Virus record (IMG/VR): IMGVR_UViG_3300034198_002782
Location: 1 to 25,498 of that record
Length of the DNA stretch: 25,498 nt
Reading direction: 5' to 3' (one strand)
Origin: a virus
A program made the position numbers and the translations under genes. Each line of letters opens with the position of its first letter. Within the stretch, counting starts at the first letter, position 1. Of the stretch, positions 300 to 5,099 are shown in pieces. The notes below the pieces were generated by a model, which was not told where the DNA came from, ran no database searches, and was given only the letters and a program-made list of their open reading frames with translations.

Positions 300-590
300 T
301 TATGGTCCAGTGGGTATAAAAACCCAATTCTCTCGTTTATTACTATAATCTATAACACGCTTCATAACGGGAACTTCATTATTTATAATCGTTTGCATCG
401 TGTTAATATCTGGGAGATCTTGTTTATTTAGGATAATTGAAACAGGGATAATCGTATCTTTCATAGAATATATTGGCGTATTTGAGTCATATTTAAACAC
501 AGACTGGATACGATGATATTCACCAGATTTCCCGTATCTTGGGAACCCATAAATCTCTATAATATATTCATCTAGAAAAGAATCACTCAT
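300..590 (-). CDS. Unrecognised 96-residue protein coupled to the radical SAM gene
   Basis: I do not recognise this protein. It has 96 residues, no cysteine, no membrane segment and no signal peptide. It has an acidic, aromatic start (residues 2-20), a hydrophobic middle (IIPVSIILNKQDLP, about 47-60) and a C-terminus ending VFIPTGP. Its ATG overlaps the stop of the radical SAM gene by one base (TAATG), so translation is almost certainly coupled and the two proteins probably act in the same process. It is small enough for a peptide-binding chaperone or leader-recognition protein, but I see no clear PqqD-like pattern. It could also be a substrate of the enzyme or an unrelated small virion protein. 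The next gene, DctP-like, starts 14 bases downstream. Confidence 0.75.
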   Translation of the reverse strand: MSDSFLDEYIIEIYGFPRYGKSGEYHRIQSVFKYDSNTPIYSMKDTIIPVSIILNKQDLPDINTMQTIINNEVPVMKRVIDYSNKRENWVFIPTGP

Positions 591-1978
591 TATACCGCCA
601 TAATAGGAATTACTTTTTTACCATTACGAGTTTTTTCTGGTTTACCATTCACCCACCAAAAGATATCTTTTCTATCTTCTCTTAATGGTCCATCAATATA
701 GATCGGTAGCCAGCCACCAGTCATAGTTTCAATTCCTGCAACAAAGGTAGTAATGTTATCACTGAATGCATTATTGCAAGTAGTTTCCCATAGAGGTCCA
801 TCTAAAAAGAAACACGCACCCTCACACATGTGTAAAACTGGGCATTTTGGGCATTCTAAACGATCACTCCAATGAGTCCCTGTTTTAACTTCAATATCTT
901 TTAAATTATCAATATGTCCAAGATGGTGGGATATGCCTGCTGGATTGACAGATACTGTAGATACATTCTGACATGTTAGGACATTTCCAAGAAGATCTAT
1001 AGATAAATTCTCTTTCTTATCCATACCACACTTTTGACCAAGGGTTTCTCTACGAGTTCCATTTTTAACTGAATTGATAAACTTATTAACTTTGTCATAA
1101 ATGATATTAAAATGTTTTACTTCACCAGATCTAATTTCATTGTAAGAACTTCTTCTAAATTCAATCTCAGATTCTTCACTAGTAAGAGAACTAGACAAAC
1201 CACCTTCATCATATGCGTCTACGAAAGCACCTTCACCAATTGTTAAATATTGAACATATTCAGCACCAAGATTCTTTGTTACTACATTAATAAAGAATTT
1301 TTCAATCTCAATCCTGCTTGTGTTTTTATTATTTAACATAGTGTTAAAACTAAATCTCATTTTAGGAGCAAGTTCTTTATATAATGCCCATATATGTTTA
1401 TTACGTTCTGGATCATCAAATGGATCAGGACCACGAACTGGCTGTCCTGGACCATCATGTGACATACCAATACTAAATCCATAATCAAGTAACCATTGAT
1501 TCTTTGCTTTATCAAACAATGAACCATTAGTAATAATACTAAACTTGGTGTTTGGATATTTTGCTTTAATCGCTTCTGCGAGTGGCTTCATTGTTTTCCA
1601 ATAAACAAATGGCTCACCACCCCAAAATTCAAAACGAGTTCCTTCACCAAGCCCATCTGAGCCACCTTTAAACCAGTTGGCCATATTAGAAACAAAAGGA
1701 TCTACGTCTGATGGATTAGTTTCGTCAGCGTGTGGGACGAATCTTTGATTACAATATTCACATTCATAATTGCAAGATAAACCCATAAGGATCTTGACTA
1801 CGTTTGGATCTTTGCTCTTGTCGATCTTAATCTGTTCTGGGATATGTTTCTGGACAATGGCTTCCTGAACAACCTTGGAACCATCTTCCCATAACAATTC
1901 GCTGGAAGCATTATCATATGTTATCTTCTTTTGTTCATTCGTAATTGGATGAACTACTGTCAAAATAAATTGTGTCAT
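590..1978 (-). CDS. Radical SAM/SPASM domain protein, likely peptide- or protein-modifying enzyme
   Basis: This is a 462-residue radical SAM enzyme with a SPASM extension. Counting from ATG at 1978, the iron-sulfur cluster motif is C69-x3-C73-x2-C76, inside ILMGLSCNYECEYC. The SAM-binding GGE motif is at 120-122 (FWGGEP). A complete SPASM pattern follows: C317-x13-G-x4-C336, then C376-x2-C379-x5-C385-x3-C389, and a last C401, so two auxiliary [4Fe-4S] clusters are predicted. Family members with this layout (sactipeptide, PqqE, thioether or epimerase maturases, anaerobic sulfatase activators) act on peptides or proteins. The N-terminal 60 residues are a separate small, probably beta-rich part that might bind substrate. 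The gene starts 22 bases after a late-type promoter box, downstream of a terminator, and its stop overlaps the start of the 96-residue gene. I prefer ATG 1978 over TTG 1981 because the GAGG ribosome site lies five bases from the ATG and only two from the TTG. The substrate is unknown. Confidence 0.92.
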   Translation of the reverse strand: MTQFILTVVHPITNEQKKITYDNASSELLWEDGSKVVQEAIVQKHIPEQIKIDKSKDPNVVKILMGLSCNYECEYCNQRFVPHADETNPSDVDPFVSNMANWFKGGSDGLGEGTRFEFWGGEPFVYWKTMKPLAEAIKAKYPNTKFSIITNGSLFDKAKNQWLLDYGFSIGMSHDGPGQPVRGPDPFDDPERNKHIWALYKELAPKMRFSFNTMLNNKNTSRIEIEKFFINVVTKNLGAEYVQYLTIGEGAFVDAYDEGGLSSSLTSEESEIEFRRSSYNEIRSGEVKHFNIIYDKVNKFINSVKNGTRRETLGQKCGMDKKENLSIDLLGNVLTCQNVSTVSVNPAGISHHLGHIDNLKDIEVKTGTHWSDRLECPKCPVLHMCEGACFFLDGPLWETTCNNAFSDNITTFVAGIETMTGGWLPIYIDGPLREDRKDIFWWVNGKPEKTRNGKKVIPIMAV

Positions 1979-2011: not shown

Positions 2012-2036
2012 AAAAAAAGGTGCCGAAGCACCTTTT
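2012..2036 (-). terminator. Rho-independent terminator with UUCG loop
   Basis: On the minus strand, AAAAGGTGC (2036-2028) pairs with GCACCTTTT (2023-2015) around a TTCG loop (2027-2024), and the run continues to seven T's at 2018-2012. The C(UUCG)G loop is an exceptionally stable tetraloop. It lies 15 bases after the stop of the 254-residue gene and ends the fibre-region transcript before the radical SAM unit. The A-rich side gives some possible activity on the plus strand too, but there is no plus-strand gene for it to serve. Confidence 0.92.
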
Positions 2037-2051
2037 ATTAAAGTATATCAA

Positions 2052-2816
2052 TTATAATAATTCATTTAATTCAGTCATACTATGATATGTAGCAAAACCA
2101 AGTTTAACTTTTACTTTAGTGCCAGATTCTACTGAAGAGTTTAAAACTCTAAAAGAACCAGAACCATTAGTTAAATATACACGAGATTTATCACAAATAC
2201 CATTAATTGATTCTAAATAAATTACATCAACATAATCTTCAGAAGAAACATTATACTTAGTGTAGTCAGGATCAGTATATGTTGTATCTTTAGAAACAGT
2301 AATTTTATCAACTAATTCAAGATGAGGTAAAGTATTATTTTTACCTTCAGCCTCATAATATTCAAATGTTTCAGTTGTATCAAGAATAGTATTTGGTTCA
2401 CCAAGTAGGATAATATCTTGTTGAGTAAATCCTAAATTTGGATTGCGAATAAAAATATGTATTGGTGAATTCCATGTTCGACCAACTTTAGGGGATGCTG
2501 AAAACTCGGATTTTTGCGCTTTAGTTGCTTCAGAAAGATTTACCACCTGAGTTGGTGTTAAAAATTCTTTATTAAATTTTGTTGGTGGCGCAATAATACC
2601 GATTAAAGTATTACTTTTAAAACCCATTTCATTTACTACTGACCATGGTAGTTTCCATTCATGAACAGTAACATTTTGTGTTTCATTATTTTGAATAAAT
2701 TCTGCTGTTACTCTAAATGTAATTAGTTGATCAGTAACAGTTAAATGATATGTTGGTGTCTCATCTGGGTGTGCGTATATAAGACCATACGTTGTTGAAA
2801 ATAATCTTTTTGCCAT
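2052..2816 (-). CDS. Probable virion or fibre-associated protein, paralogue B (254 residues)
   Basis: This is a 254-residue protein of unknown function, clearly paralogous to the product of the gene just upstream (2828-3676). Shared blocks are WKLPWSVV (54-61) with WTLPFSIV, IHIFIRNPN (109-117) with IQILVRNPE, DKITVSKDTTY (160-170) with DKITVTKEMTY, and LTNGSGSFRVLNSSVESG (205-222) with the matching LTNGVGYVRGLKSSVEGS. The composition, rich in Val, Thr and Asn with alternating hydrophobic residues, suggests a beta-sandwich structural protein. There is no signal peptide or membrane segment. Its start follows the paralogue's stop by 11 bases, with an AGGA ribosome site overlapping that stop. 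It is the last gene before the strong terminator at 2012-2036. A chaperone or attachment role for the neighbouring fibre is possible but not shown by the sequence. Confidence 0.85.
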   Translation of the reverse strand: MAKRLFSTTYGLIYAHPDETPTYHLTVTDQLITFRVTAEFIQNNETQNVTVHEWKLPWSVVNEMGFKSNTLIGIIAPPTKFNKEFLTPTQVVNLSEATKAQKSEFSASPKVGRTWNSPIHIFIRNPNLGFTQQDIILLGEPNTILDTTETFEYYEAEGKNNTLPHLELVDKITVSKDTTYTDPDYTKYNVSSEDYVDVIYLESINGICDKSRVYLTNGSGSFRVLNSSVESGTKVKVKLGFATYHSMTELNELL

Positions 2817-2827
2817 TTTATTTTTTC

Positions 2828-3676
2828 CTAGTTTATTGTCATTGCGTTTACATTATAATTTGGAAACACAACAGAATTCAGGCTTTGCATCAATTCGGTA
2901 TAAGAATTGGTATCATAAGTTACAAAGTTATTTGGATCAGTAAATGACACAATATTTAGATAATTTAAATGTCCAACTTTAAATGATATTTTATCGGATC
3001 CTTCAACTGAAGATTTTAATCCACGAACATATCCGACACCATTAGTTAGATTAATTCGTACTTTATCAAGAATTCCTGTTCTGGCATGAACATCAACTGA
3101 TTTAACATATGGCGCAGTGGTAATTTTATACTTAAAATATTCAGCATCATCATACGTCATTTCTTTAGTTACTGTAATTTTATCTAATAAAGGAATGACA
3201 TCACCATTCCATGAAACTTGTTCATTAGATGTTGTAAAATTATACTCATCTTTTGTGAAAACGATAACATCACAATCATCAAACGAGCCTTCAGGATTTC
3301 TTACTAATATCTGAATAGTAGCTGGTTGATCTAAAGTATATAATGAAGAAATAATAGGATTTCTAGTATTAGGAGAACGATTCAAATATGTAAGTGGTGA
3401 AATTACTATAAGATTATTTGCGCTAAGAACTTTTTTTTCTCTATCATTAGGTATTATAGAAAGCGATACCAAAGAATTTGGTACTATCGCACGCACGTCT
3501 TTTACAATTGAGAATGGTAAAGTCCAATCTGATATAACAGTAATCGCATTACCGAGAATTACTTCTAGTTTCGATGTTATAGCAGTAGGTGTAACATTAA
3601 CACTTAATCTAACTTGTTCTTCTACTGCTAAAAATTTTGATTTATTAAATTCTTTTTTTACGAGGATTTTACTCAT
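2828..3676 (-). CDS. Probable virion or fibre-associated protein, paralogue A (282 residues)
   Basis: This 282-residue protein of unknown function is the upstream member of a tandem paralogous pair. The two align through the core, at 51-58, 111-119, 155-165 and 200-217 here. Both end with a similar helix-like tail (SYTELMQSL here, SMTELNELL in the partner). This copy carries about 20 further C-terminal residues ending in FPNYNVNAMTIN and some additional internal residues. Alternating hydrophobic residues and many Thr, Val and Asn suggest an all-beta virion protein. The start has an AAAGGA ribosome site and lies 39 bases after the fibre stop, so it is probably on the same transcript as the fibre. 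I cannot assign it to a named family. Confidence 0.85.
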   Translation of the reverse strand: MSKILVKKEFNKSKFLAVEEQVRLSVNVTPTAITSKLEVILGNAITVISDWTLPFSIVKDVRAIVPNSLVSLSIIPNDREKKVLSANNLIVISPLTYLNRSPNTRNPIISSLYTLDQPATIQILVRNPEGSFDDCDVIVFTKDEYNFTTSNEQVSWNGDVIPLLDKITVTKEMTYDDAEYFKYKITTAPYVKSVDVHARTGILDKVRINLTNGVGYVRGLKSSVEGSDKISFKVGHLNYLNIVSFTDPNNFVTYDTNSYTELMQSLNSVVFPNYNVNAMTIN

Positions 3677-3715: not shown

Positions 3716-4858
3716 TTAGCAATTACAACGGCAATTTGGCGAGAAGTTACCATAGTTACCTAAGTTGTTGGCAAACTGAGAAAGATGTCCTGGCCAACCA
3801 GTTTGAGCATTATGCGCTTGGTGACCATATGAACTATTATGAGCATGCGGTGCAGTATTTGCGTGGGTTGAATTATTAGAATTATGAGCATGCGGTGCTG
3901 TTGCTGCATGCGAGGCATTATGTGCATTGGTTGCATTGGTTGCATGGGGCGATGCGCCAGCATGTCCACCGATGTTAGTAACAATAACTGCGCCAATCTG
4001 TCCTTGAACAGAACTAACAGGAACACTAACGATAACTGCACCAGTCTGTCCTTGAACAGAAGTAACTGAAGCATCAACAGTAATATTTCCAGCAACACCA
4101 GTACCATTGGTAATAGTAATACCACCACCAGCCACAATAGTTCTACCAGCAATAGTACCAGCTGCAGTTTTGACAACTATACCATATGATGATAAACCAG
4201 ATAATGATGTTAGTGTTGCATCTGCAGCCTGTACTTCAGTACCGATACGTAATTGAAGGAGTGCTGCAGCAGTACTATACGAAGCAGTTCCAGCCAAAGA
4301 TCTACCGAATGCTGTAAAGGCTGTAGTAGTAGCACTAGTTGTGCCATTAAAATAAGGAATAGTATCAGCAGCAGAAGTTGTTGCGCCCAAATTGCTTAGA
4401 CTTTGAGTCCACCCTTGTACATTGGTATTGATAACAAGACCAAGGTTACTACGAGCAGTGCTAGCATCAGTAGCACCAGTACCACCACCAGCGATTGCTA
4501 CAGTATAGTTCAAACTAGAAGCAATAGAAGCCGTACCAGTTAGAGCAGCAGTAATAGTACCAGCGGAGAAGTTACCAGAAGCATCACGAGCAACGATAGT
4601 GTTGGCAGTGTTAGCATTAGTAGCACTACGAGCACCAGAGTTAAAGGTCATGGTATCCGAGTTTAAACCACCAGCTTGACTATATCCAGTTAGCGAGTTT
4701 ACTTTGGATAGAACGTCTGCGGCAGTATAACTAGCTGCAGTAAGACCAGTCGCAAGGGCTGTATTAATGTTTGAGAAGTTGTTATCTACTTCTGTATTAG
4801 TAAGAGGACTACCTTTAGTCGATCTTAACGTAATAGATGCGGATGTTATATTTGCCAT
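3716..4858 (-). CDS. Tail fibre protein with His-rich region and Cys-x-Cys-x-Cys C-terminus
   Basis: This is a 380-residue tail fibre protein. The N-terminus (ITLRSTKGSPLTNTEVDNNF, residues 9-28) is a common opening of marine phage fibres and probably joins the baseplate. The shaft is rich in Thr, Ala, Gly and Asn, with a typical AGGGTGATDASTARSNLG segment (123-140) and two copies of SVQGQxGAVIV (about 267 and 283). Residues 299-358 hold twelve histidines, including two His-Ala-His pairs at 323/325 and 338/340 in a repeated TAPHAHNS. The protein then runs through a Gly/Asn segment to NCRCNC. C376, C378 and C380 are the only cysteines. In T4 gp37, His-x-His pairs bind iron inside the trimeric fibre tip, so this region may be a metal-containing needle. 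A radical SAM gene lies about 1.7 kb downstream, which makes a modified tip another possibility. The receptor is unknown. Confidence 0.85.
   Translation of the reverse strand: MANITSASITLRSTKGSPLTNTEVDNNFSNINTALATGLTAASYTAADVLSKVNSLTGYSQAGGLNSDTMTFNSGARSATNANTANTIVARDASGNFSAGTITAALTGTASIASSLNYTVAIAGGGTGATDASTARSNLGLVINTNVQGWTQSLSNLGATTSAADTIPYFNGTTSATTTAFTAFGRSLAGTASYSTAAALLQLRIGTEVQAADATLTSLSGLSSYGIVVKTAAGTIAGRTIVAGGGITITNGTGVAGNITVDASVTSVQGQTGAVIVSVPVSSVQGQIGAVIVTNIGGHAGASPHATNATNAHNASHAATAPHAHNSNNSTHANTAPHAHNSSYGHQAHNAQTGWPGHLSQFANNLGNYGNFSPNCRCNC
3833..3901 (-). repeat. Two 45-base-spaced repeats in the fibre tip coding TAPHAHNS
   Basis: A 24-base unit coding for TAPHAHNS occurs at 3901-3878 and again at 3856-3833, with near-identical bases in the core. 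The period of 45 bases equals 15 residues. It lies in the His-rich region of the fibre and could allow the number of His-x-His pairs to change by recombination. Confidence 0.75.
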
Positions 4859-4874: not shown

Positions 4875-5099
4875 TCAATCTTTTTTCAATATTTGAAGAA
4901 GCAATGATTTAATGTCCTGCAATTCATTCTTAATGTTATTTATATCTTCAGTATGTTTAGAAATTTCGGCTTCTCGCTCCTCAGCTTTACGCTGTCTAGC
5001 GATATATTCTTCATATTCAGTTCTATTAGTATTTAGGATAGCACCAGTAGTGGTATCCCTAACTAATCCTTCATGACCGAGGACTTTTAAATATTGCAT
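4875..5099 (-). CDS. Small coiled-coil virion-region protein (74 residues)
   Basis: This protein has 74 residues. The first 35 form a compact part with LVRDTTTGAILNTN (12-25), which I have the impression of meeting often in small proteins near marine phage structural genes but cannot name. Residues 36-74 are charged, heptad-like and rich in Glu, Lys, Ile and Leu (ending IKSLLLQILKKD), which indicates a coiled coil, probably an oligomerisation or docking helix. It begins one base after the stop of the 2240-residue gene with no visible Shine-Dalgarno sequence, so it is probably translated by reinitiation. The fibre gene follows after 16 bases. A linker between fibre and baseplate is plausible but unproven. 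Confidence 0.8.
   Translation of the reverse strand: MQYLKVLGHEGLVRDTTTGAILNTNRTEYEEYIARQRKAEEREAEISKHTEDINNIKNELQDIKSLLLQILKKD

Follow-up and report, generated by a model that had tools for sequence, protein, structure and literature searches.

Introduction

Among described systems, those closest to the enzyme analysed here are the ranthipeptide maturases CteB and PapB (SCIFF and freyrasin maturases), whose Cys-rich substrate is encoded beside the enzyme. Auxiliary cluster I of CteB has an open site that is bound by a Cys of the substrate, and the seven Cys in AlbA prompted the same open-site proposal (PMC6231123). Known thioether acceptors include Asn, Asp and Ala, as documented for thurincin H, thuricin Z and ruminococcin C1, and PapB rejects Asn in place of Asp (PMC8172795). 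QhpD, a radical SAM/SPASM enzyme, forms several Cys-to-Asp/Glu thioethers in a structural subunit from the same operon (PMC7876137), and anSME also acts on a protein. Radical SAM genes in phages have been mentioned (PMC7029224, PMC5332604), and one phage protein family of this kind, PHROG 1802, is annotated by domain only, with no function or substrate assigned.

The window (the whole stretch of 25,498 nucleotides of viral DNA analysed here) encodes a radical SAM/SPASM enzyme of the PHROG 1802 family that has in common with CteB and PapB the SPASM fold, the C..C spacing, the seven-Cys logic and a Cys-rich putative substrate encoded next to it, but scores far under the NCBIfam cut-offs for PapB (45.7 versus 340 bits) and SCIFF (20.2 versus 425). 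Ranthipeptide and sactipeptide systems have a small precursor with a leader and usually a protease or exporter, whereas here the Cys are carried by fibres or minor tail proteins, and no protease or exporter family was recurrent among the neighbours of the enzyme. The N-terminal ~50 residues of the enzyme are predicted to form strands, without helices like those of an RRE (the winged-helix domain that binds leaders). The acceptors in ruminococcin C, thurincin H and thuricin Z include Asn, Ala and Asp, which are the residues found between Cys here, but those products are peptide antibiotics, small and secreted, whose crosslinks form hairpins, and the RumMC score is 19.3 versus 720 bits. The match to QhpD is full-length but weak (TIGR03906, 32.7 versus a cut-off of 453 bits), and what QhpD modifies is a non-virion protein whose leader is cleaved off and whose crosslinks are spaced apart. 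As for anSME, the name under which the homologue in Achromobacter phage JWF had been annotated, the folds are similar (Z 19.8), but the score is low (TIGR03942, 41 versus a cut-off of 349.45 bits), there are seven SPASM Cys versus eight, and neither a sulfatase nor its motif is present.

Results

A radical SAM/SPASM enzyme under strong constraint

The enzyme (462 aa; 590..1978, minus strand) is read from an ATG at 1978–1976 to a stop codon at 592–590, and contains C69/C73/C76, GGE at 120–122 and SPASM Cys at 317, 336, 376, 379, 385, 389 and 401. All ten Cys, and likewise GGE, are invariant both in 101 full-length relatives and in a 37-row alignment, and the complete Cys pattern occurs in 202 of 207 full-length family members; since the ten Cys do not vary across relatives, the enzyme must be strongly constrained. 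The general family models are matched just below their cut-offs (Radical_SAM PF04055, 1.2e-6, 29.2 versus 29.5 bits; SPASM TIGR04085, 6.7e-6, 26.5 versus 27 bits), and PHROG 1802 (‘radical SAM domain-containing protein’), to which gp30 of JWF belongs, is matched at 1.5e-57. With CxxxCxxC and GGE in a radical SAM domain the protein meets the criteria for the radical SAM superfamily, and with seven Cys in SPASM order that align with the SPASM domains of anSME and CteB it meets those for the SPASM subfamily. The best NCBIfam E-value was for viperin-like antiviral nucleotide synthases (NF038283), an assignment we rejected given 53.7 versus a cut-off of 180 bits and the presence of a SPASM domain.

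The solved structure closest to an AlphaFold2 model of the enzyme (pLDDT 92) is CteB (5why; Z 23.7, rmsd 4.2, 354 residues), followed by ChlB (Z 20.1), anSME (4k36, at the Z given above) and TigE (Z 18.2); anSME was the top Foldseek match, and the epimerase EpeE matched more weakly (Z 13.6), with mainly the radical SAM domain covered. In sequence alignment the first SPASM segment is C-x18-C with no Cys between, like CteB and unlike anSME. Judged by Cys count and spacing, with no cluster seen, the seven SPASM Cys could leave an open site on auxiliary cluster I, and a non-Cys ligand there is also possible. At the N-terminus, strands are predicted at residues 3–9, 16–22 and 27–30 with no helix in 1–60, and the alignment to CteB begins at residue 1 (this domain was not modelled alone).

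Gene order in the window and the Cys-ending fibre

The minus-strand order is baseplate/tail genes, fibre, two copies of a protein that we call X, a hairpin, the enzyme, a 96-aa protein and a gene for a DctP-like solute-binding protein (1–285, minus), which extends past the window edge. The fibre (380 aa; 3716..4858, minus) matches PHROG tail fibre families and is the proposed substrate of the enzyme, itself the proposed fibre-tip maturase. It ends in SPNCRCNC (codons at 3719..3742, minus), the proposed modification site, with its sole Cys at 376, 378 and 380. Close relatives of the window (L003, L004, L057) keep this SPNCRCNC tail though the sequence preceding it varies. A search of named phages with the window fibre sequence gave no match. 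The distal part of this fibre is His-rich, with HxH motifs at residues 323 and 338; the tip of T4 gp37 binds iron, and these motifs resemble that tip.

Copies 1 (282 aa; 2828..3676, minus) and 2 (254 aa; 2052..2816, minus) of X follow the fibre, and between X and the enzyme gene lies a hairpin resembling an intrinsic terminator (AAAAGGTGC-TTCG-GCACCTTTT; 2012..2036, minus; sequence only). Upstream of the fibre gene is TATAAATA, an exact T4-late-type −10 element (4937..4944, minus; a consensus match only). By exact matching on the minus strand TATAAATA occurs only there (4944–4937) and before the DctP-like gene (387–380), and it was not found just upstream of the enzyme gene, directly 5′ of which are the hairpin and a loose CTACTAAATA; a late promoter immediately before the enzyme gene is rejected, as no TATAAATA occurs at that place. 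Of what the initial annotation had read from the window, the intact radical SAM/SPASM motifs held, and are conserved in relatives as well, as did the fibre with a CxCxC end beside the enzyme; its statement that the enzyme follows a T4-late-type promoter is weak, with the exact sites preceding the fibre and DctP-like genes instead.

Enzyme and tail co-occur in both search directions

We searched IMG/VR with the enzyme, bacterial and archaeal genomes with the family alignment, and named phages; IMG/VR, bacterial genomes and two Achromobacter phages together yielded about 200 family members. Full-length matches among named phages were confined to Achromobacter phages 2-1 and JWF. For the enzyme-seeded count, loci were reduced at 90% identity and at least 5 kb of upstream sequence was required. 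A same-strand ORF whose product closes with an alternating (N/D/A)-Cys run was present within 5 kb upstream in 28 of 31 viral and 38 of 49 genomic loci (66/80), compared to none downstream on the same strand (0/18 viral, 0/45 genomic, 0/63 together; Fisher 3e-27 versus upstream). Opposite-strand controls gave 2/31 viral and 0/49 genomic loci upstream and 1/63 downstream, and chance Cys tails are thus rejected, the opposite-strand and downstream controls totalling only three matches.

Of the three viral misses, two carry the tail a little beyond the 5-kb limit, and the tail of the third is degenerate (NCNCDRNCGC). The 11 of 49 genomic members without a recognised tail are mostly distant (Variovorax, Ramlibacter, Bacteriovorax and some Magnetospirillum), and some are modified tails (L269); it is possible that distant bacterial members lacking a recognised tail have other substrates. 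We observed neither a recognised xCxC tail nor clear phage genes near the members from Variovorax, Ramlibacter and Bacteriovorax (L311, L313, L315, L307, L314, L317).

In the reverse direction, IMG/VR was scanned with the tail DNA alone, keeping only those tails that close, in frame, an ORF of at least 80 aa with at least 4 kb of contig downstream. The enzyme was present for 60 of 60 in-frame tails, compared to 4 of 34 other motif matches. The scan also returned small proteins beginning MTKKCKNCNCDCHC, which were set aside as a separate zinc-knuckle-like class, with the enzyme in 0 of 40; such Cys-rich proteins of 40–60 aa were seen on many viral contigs (L130, L140, L151, L157 and about 36 others).

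As a control we fetched fibres with the N-terminal/repeat part of one carrier, again requiring enough downstream sequence. Tail and enzyme were both present in 18, the tail only in none, the enzyme only in one and neither in 36, so that the enzyme was absent in 36 of 37 fibres without the tail; after de-duplication at 80% the counts were 5/0/1/32 (p = 1e-5). Locus L399 has the enzyme and no tail within its 14 kb. These controls are similar fibres and not strict orthologues, because the first ~20 have the whole N-terminal domain in common, the others mainly the fibre repeat. When X was the query, all 25 new loci retrieved had both the enzyme and the tail. Raw counts overstate independence, because many of the loci are related. 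The co-occurrence of homologues with CxCxC fibres, a check that the initial annotation had proposed, is thus strongly positive in both directions, and as far as sequence can show it the pairing of enzyme and tail is near-obligatory and well supported.

Side by side with this family we noted divergent radical SAM genes in L132, L145, L162 and L188 (two each in L132 and L162) beside Cys-rich proteins, with sequences such as KCQTCQGCQKCQYYMTxNCNCDC and tails ending NCNCDCSDDSGGG. They are perhaps a second lineage of the same system.

Tails on dissimilar carriers and a possible second route to a C-terminal run

The residues between Cys in the tails are N (273), D (54), A (49) and few others; Cys is the final residue in 75 of 103 tails, and the runs have from three Cys, as in the window, up to nine. 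With their last 25 residues trimmed off, the carrier proteins (about 80–600 aa) cluster by sequence into eight groups, of which one is very large; they include long fibres, arrays of three ~90-aa proteins (L102, L105, L107, L112, L114) and, on several large contigs, small tail proteins immediately before the enzyme gene.

In JWF a Hint domain (PF05203, 3e-12) begins right behind the Cys run. A run followed immediately by a Hint start (CFPAGT, CFPLDT or CFAPGT) is found in JWF, 2-1, L037, L050, L191, L267 (Burkholderia paludis) and the Rhodospirillaceae-type loci L312, L316, L319 and L320; a Hint (intein-like) fusion directly after the fibre run was noted in the same L-numbered loci and in L001 and L002. 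Hint domains cleave the peptide bond at that Cys. Such cleavage would make the run the mature C-terminus, as it is in the window, and with the same end state reached by two routes the C-terminal position of the run appears to matter.

Protein X, oxygenase-like proteins and other neighbours

The X family lies between fibre and enzyme in 100 of 137 loci. It is poorly conserved (17% mean column identity) with no invariant reactive residue, and each copy in the window has one Cys. Copy 2 is predicted to be all-beta with an Ig-like C-terminal domain (pLDDT 85.7); a fold search of X matched only unnamed phage proteins in BFVD and no related solved structure. We infer that X is probably a structural partner associated with the tip, or an assembly factor.

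A 215-aa family resembling 2OG-Fe(II) oxygenases (PF13759, 1e-4; PHROG 81, 5e-13) lies between X and the enzyme gene in about 62 of 137 loci and may act on the same fibre. Oxygenase-like genes were noted at L112:4221–4868, L299:6289–7032, L299:7306–7953, L037:9372–9998 and L252:7234–7818. L252 has a different oxygenase that matches FlmC, a name that in NCBIfam pairs an oxygenase family with the radical SAM/SPASM maturase FlmE.

The 96-aa protein (300..590, minus), whose start codon overlaps the enzyme stop (TAATG), was set aside as probably not the substrate: it has no Cys and was found in only 12 of 137 loci. A phage DctP-like TRAP transporter solute-binding gene is near the enzyme in 13 loci; a full copy (L005:7958–8902; PF03480, 1.7e-40) starts MTKHVKWVIAHEP and has no obvious signal peptide, and a similar gene is near a Bacteriovoracaceae family member (L307:2994–4001). 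About 14 loci have near the enzyme a protein of 250–346 aa (L009:5969–7009, L015:30–782) that by eye resembles a PP-loop ATPase (WSGGIDSTY in L015), with no confident family match.

Discussion

We consider the C-terminal (N/D/A)-Cys fibre tail the likely substrate of the enzyme, because the two co-occur in both search directions and the enzyme is missing beside control fibres that have no tail; this is an inference with good support but without biochemical data. It is likely, too, that the enzyme modifies this tail of the neighbouring fibre post-translationally during virion assembly, although no experiment bears on the modification. As to the chemistry, the logic of the enzyme family leads us to favour, by a modest margin, a thioether between Cys and the neighbouring Asn, Asp or Ala. 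The enzyme would bind the tail of the neighbouring fibre, auxiliary cluster I may be ligated at its open site by a tail Cys, the 5′-deoxyadenosyl radical would abstract a hydrogen from an Asn, Asp or Ala residue, and the Cys sulfur would then be bonded to that carbon as a thioether. Repeated along the run, within one chain or among the three chains of the fibre trimer, crosslinking would yield a thioether-stapled, redox-resistant tip for receptor contact. It is speculative that the chains of the trimer are crosslinked to one another, or that the tip serves receptor contact or stabilises the particle. Against this reading overall, 11 of 49 genomic members and L399 have no recognised tail, and the window fibre has only three Cys. 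Against a thioether in particular, donor and acceptor in known thioether peptides are usually several residues apart, whereas here Cys and acceptors alternate, and PapB, as noted, rejects Asn in place of Asp.

The same tail might instead undergo another radical reaction: Cys could be oxidised to formylglycine, which is what anSME does, every other residue could be epimerised to the D form, or C–C crosslinks could be made. In favour of this, anSME is nearly as close structurally as CteB and heads the Foldseek matches, and a reaction at every second residue would fit a run that alternates so strictly; but the seven-Cys SPASM domain lacks one cluster ligand of anSME and has the CteB spacing, there is no CxPxR sulfatase-like motif, and the match to EpeE is limited mainly to the radical SAM domain. 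We regard such reactions as unlikely, though formylglycine formation and epimerisation are possibilities not excluded. Less probable still is that the xCxC tail is merely a docking or recognition tag, with the enzyme acting elsewhere on the fibre or on X. X is indeed as tightly linked as the tail, given its presence in 100/137 loci and the 25/25 loci of the X-seeded search, but its poor conservation and single Cys per window copy speak against it as the target, and the tail is the common element of otherwise unrelated carriers.

That the tail is a knob that binds metal or Fe–S or is disulfide-bonded, the enzyme being only indirectly linked, we hold to be all but ruled out. Closely spaced Cys are good metal binders and the window fibre has its two HxH motifs, but neither the near-absolute two-way pairing with a radical SAM enzyme nor the absence of the enzyme from tail-less fibres would be explained. 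A host peptide as target is rejected, as virion genes accompany the enzyme in phages that are unrelated to each other, and no gene directed at the host is recurrent. Accordingly, of the readings offered by the initial annotation, modification of a virion protein at assembly is supported by the pairing, with the modification itself not shown; the alternative of a modified host peptide failed, and that of the 96-residue partner as a second candidate substrate is not supported. Its remark that no such phage system was known stands in so far as no published description, and no link of a radical SAM enzyme to fibre tails, was found in the open-access literature searched (bioRxiv and subscription papers were outside scope).

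Returning to tail modification as the preferred reading, a bolder version of it is one that we can neither press nor dismiss. The system would be general among viruses: the radical SAM enzyme, together with its dedicated X and in many cases a 2OG-Fe(II) oxygenase, would rebuild a repetitive (N/D/A)-Cys fibre tip covalently, possibly stapling the trimer chains, and some phages would use a Hint domain to first expose or esterify the tip. The question is directly testable, because isolated Achromobacter phages (JWF, 2-1) and cultured prophage hosts (Limnohabitans, Burkholderia paludis, Thalassobacter) carry the system.

If true, this would be the first known virion maturation by radical chemistry and a new class of protein modification, in unrelated phages of several bacterial groups. 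Modification of the tip would annotate PHROG 1802, a large phage family now named by domain only, and natural enzymes for C-terminal tags of folded proteins would be on offer. Explanations of how phages attach to the host usually invoke only the fold and sequence of the fibre; an enzyme that rewrites the tip would add a chemical layer, one that would concern both host recognition and particle stability.
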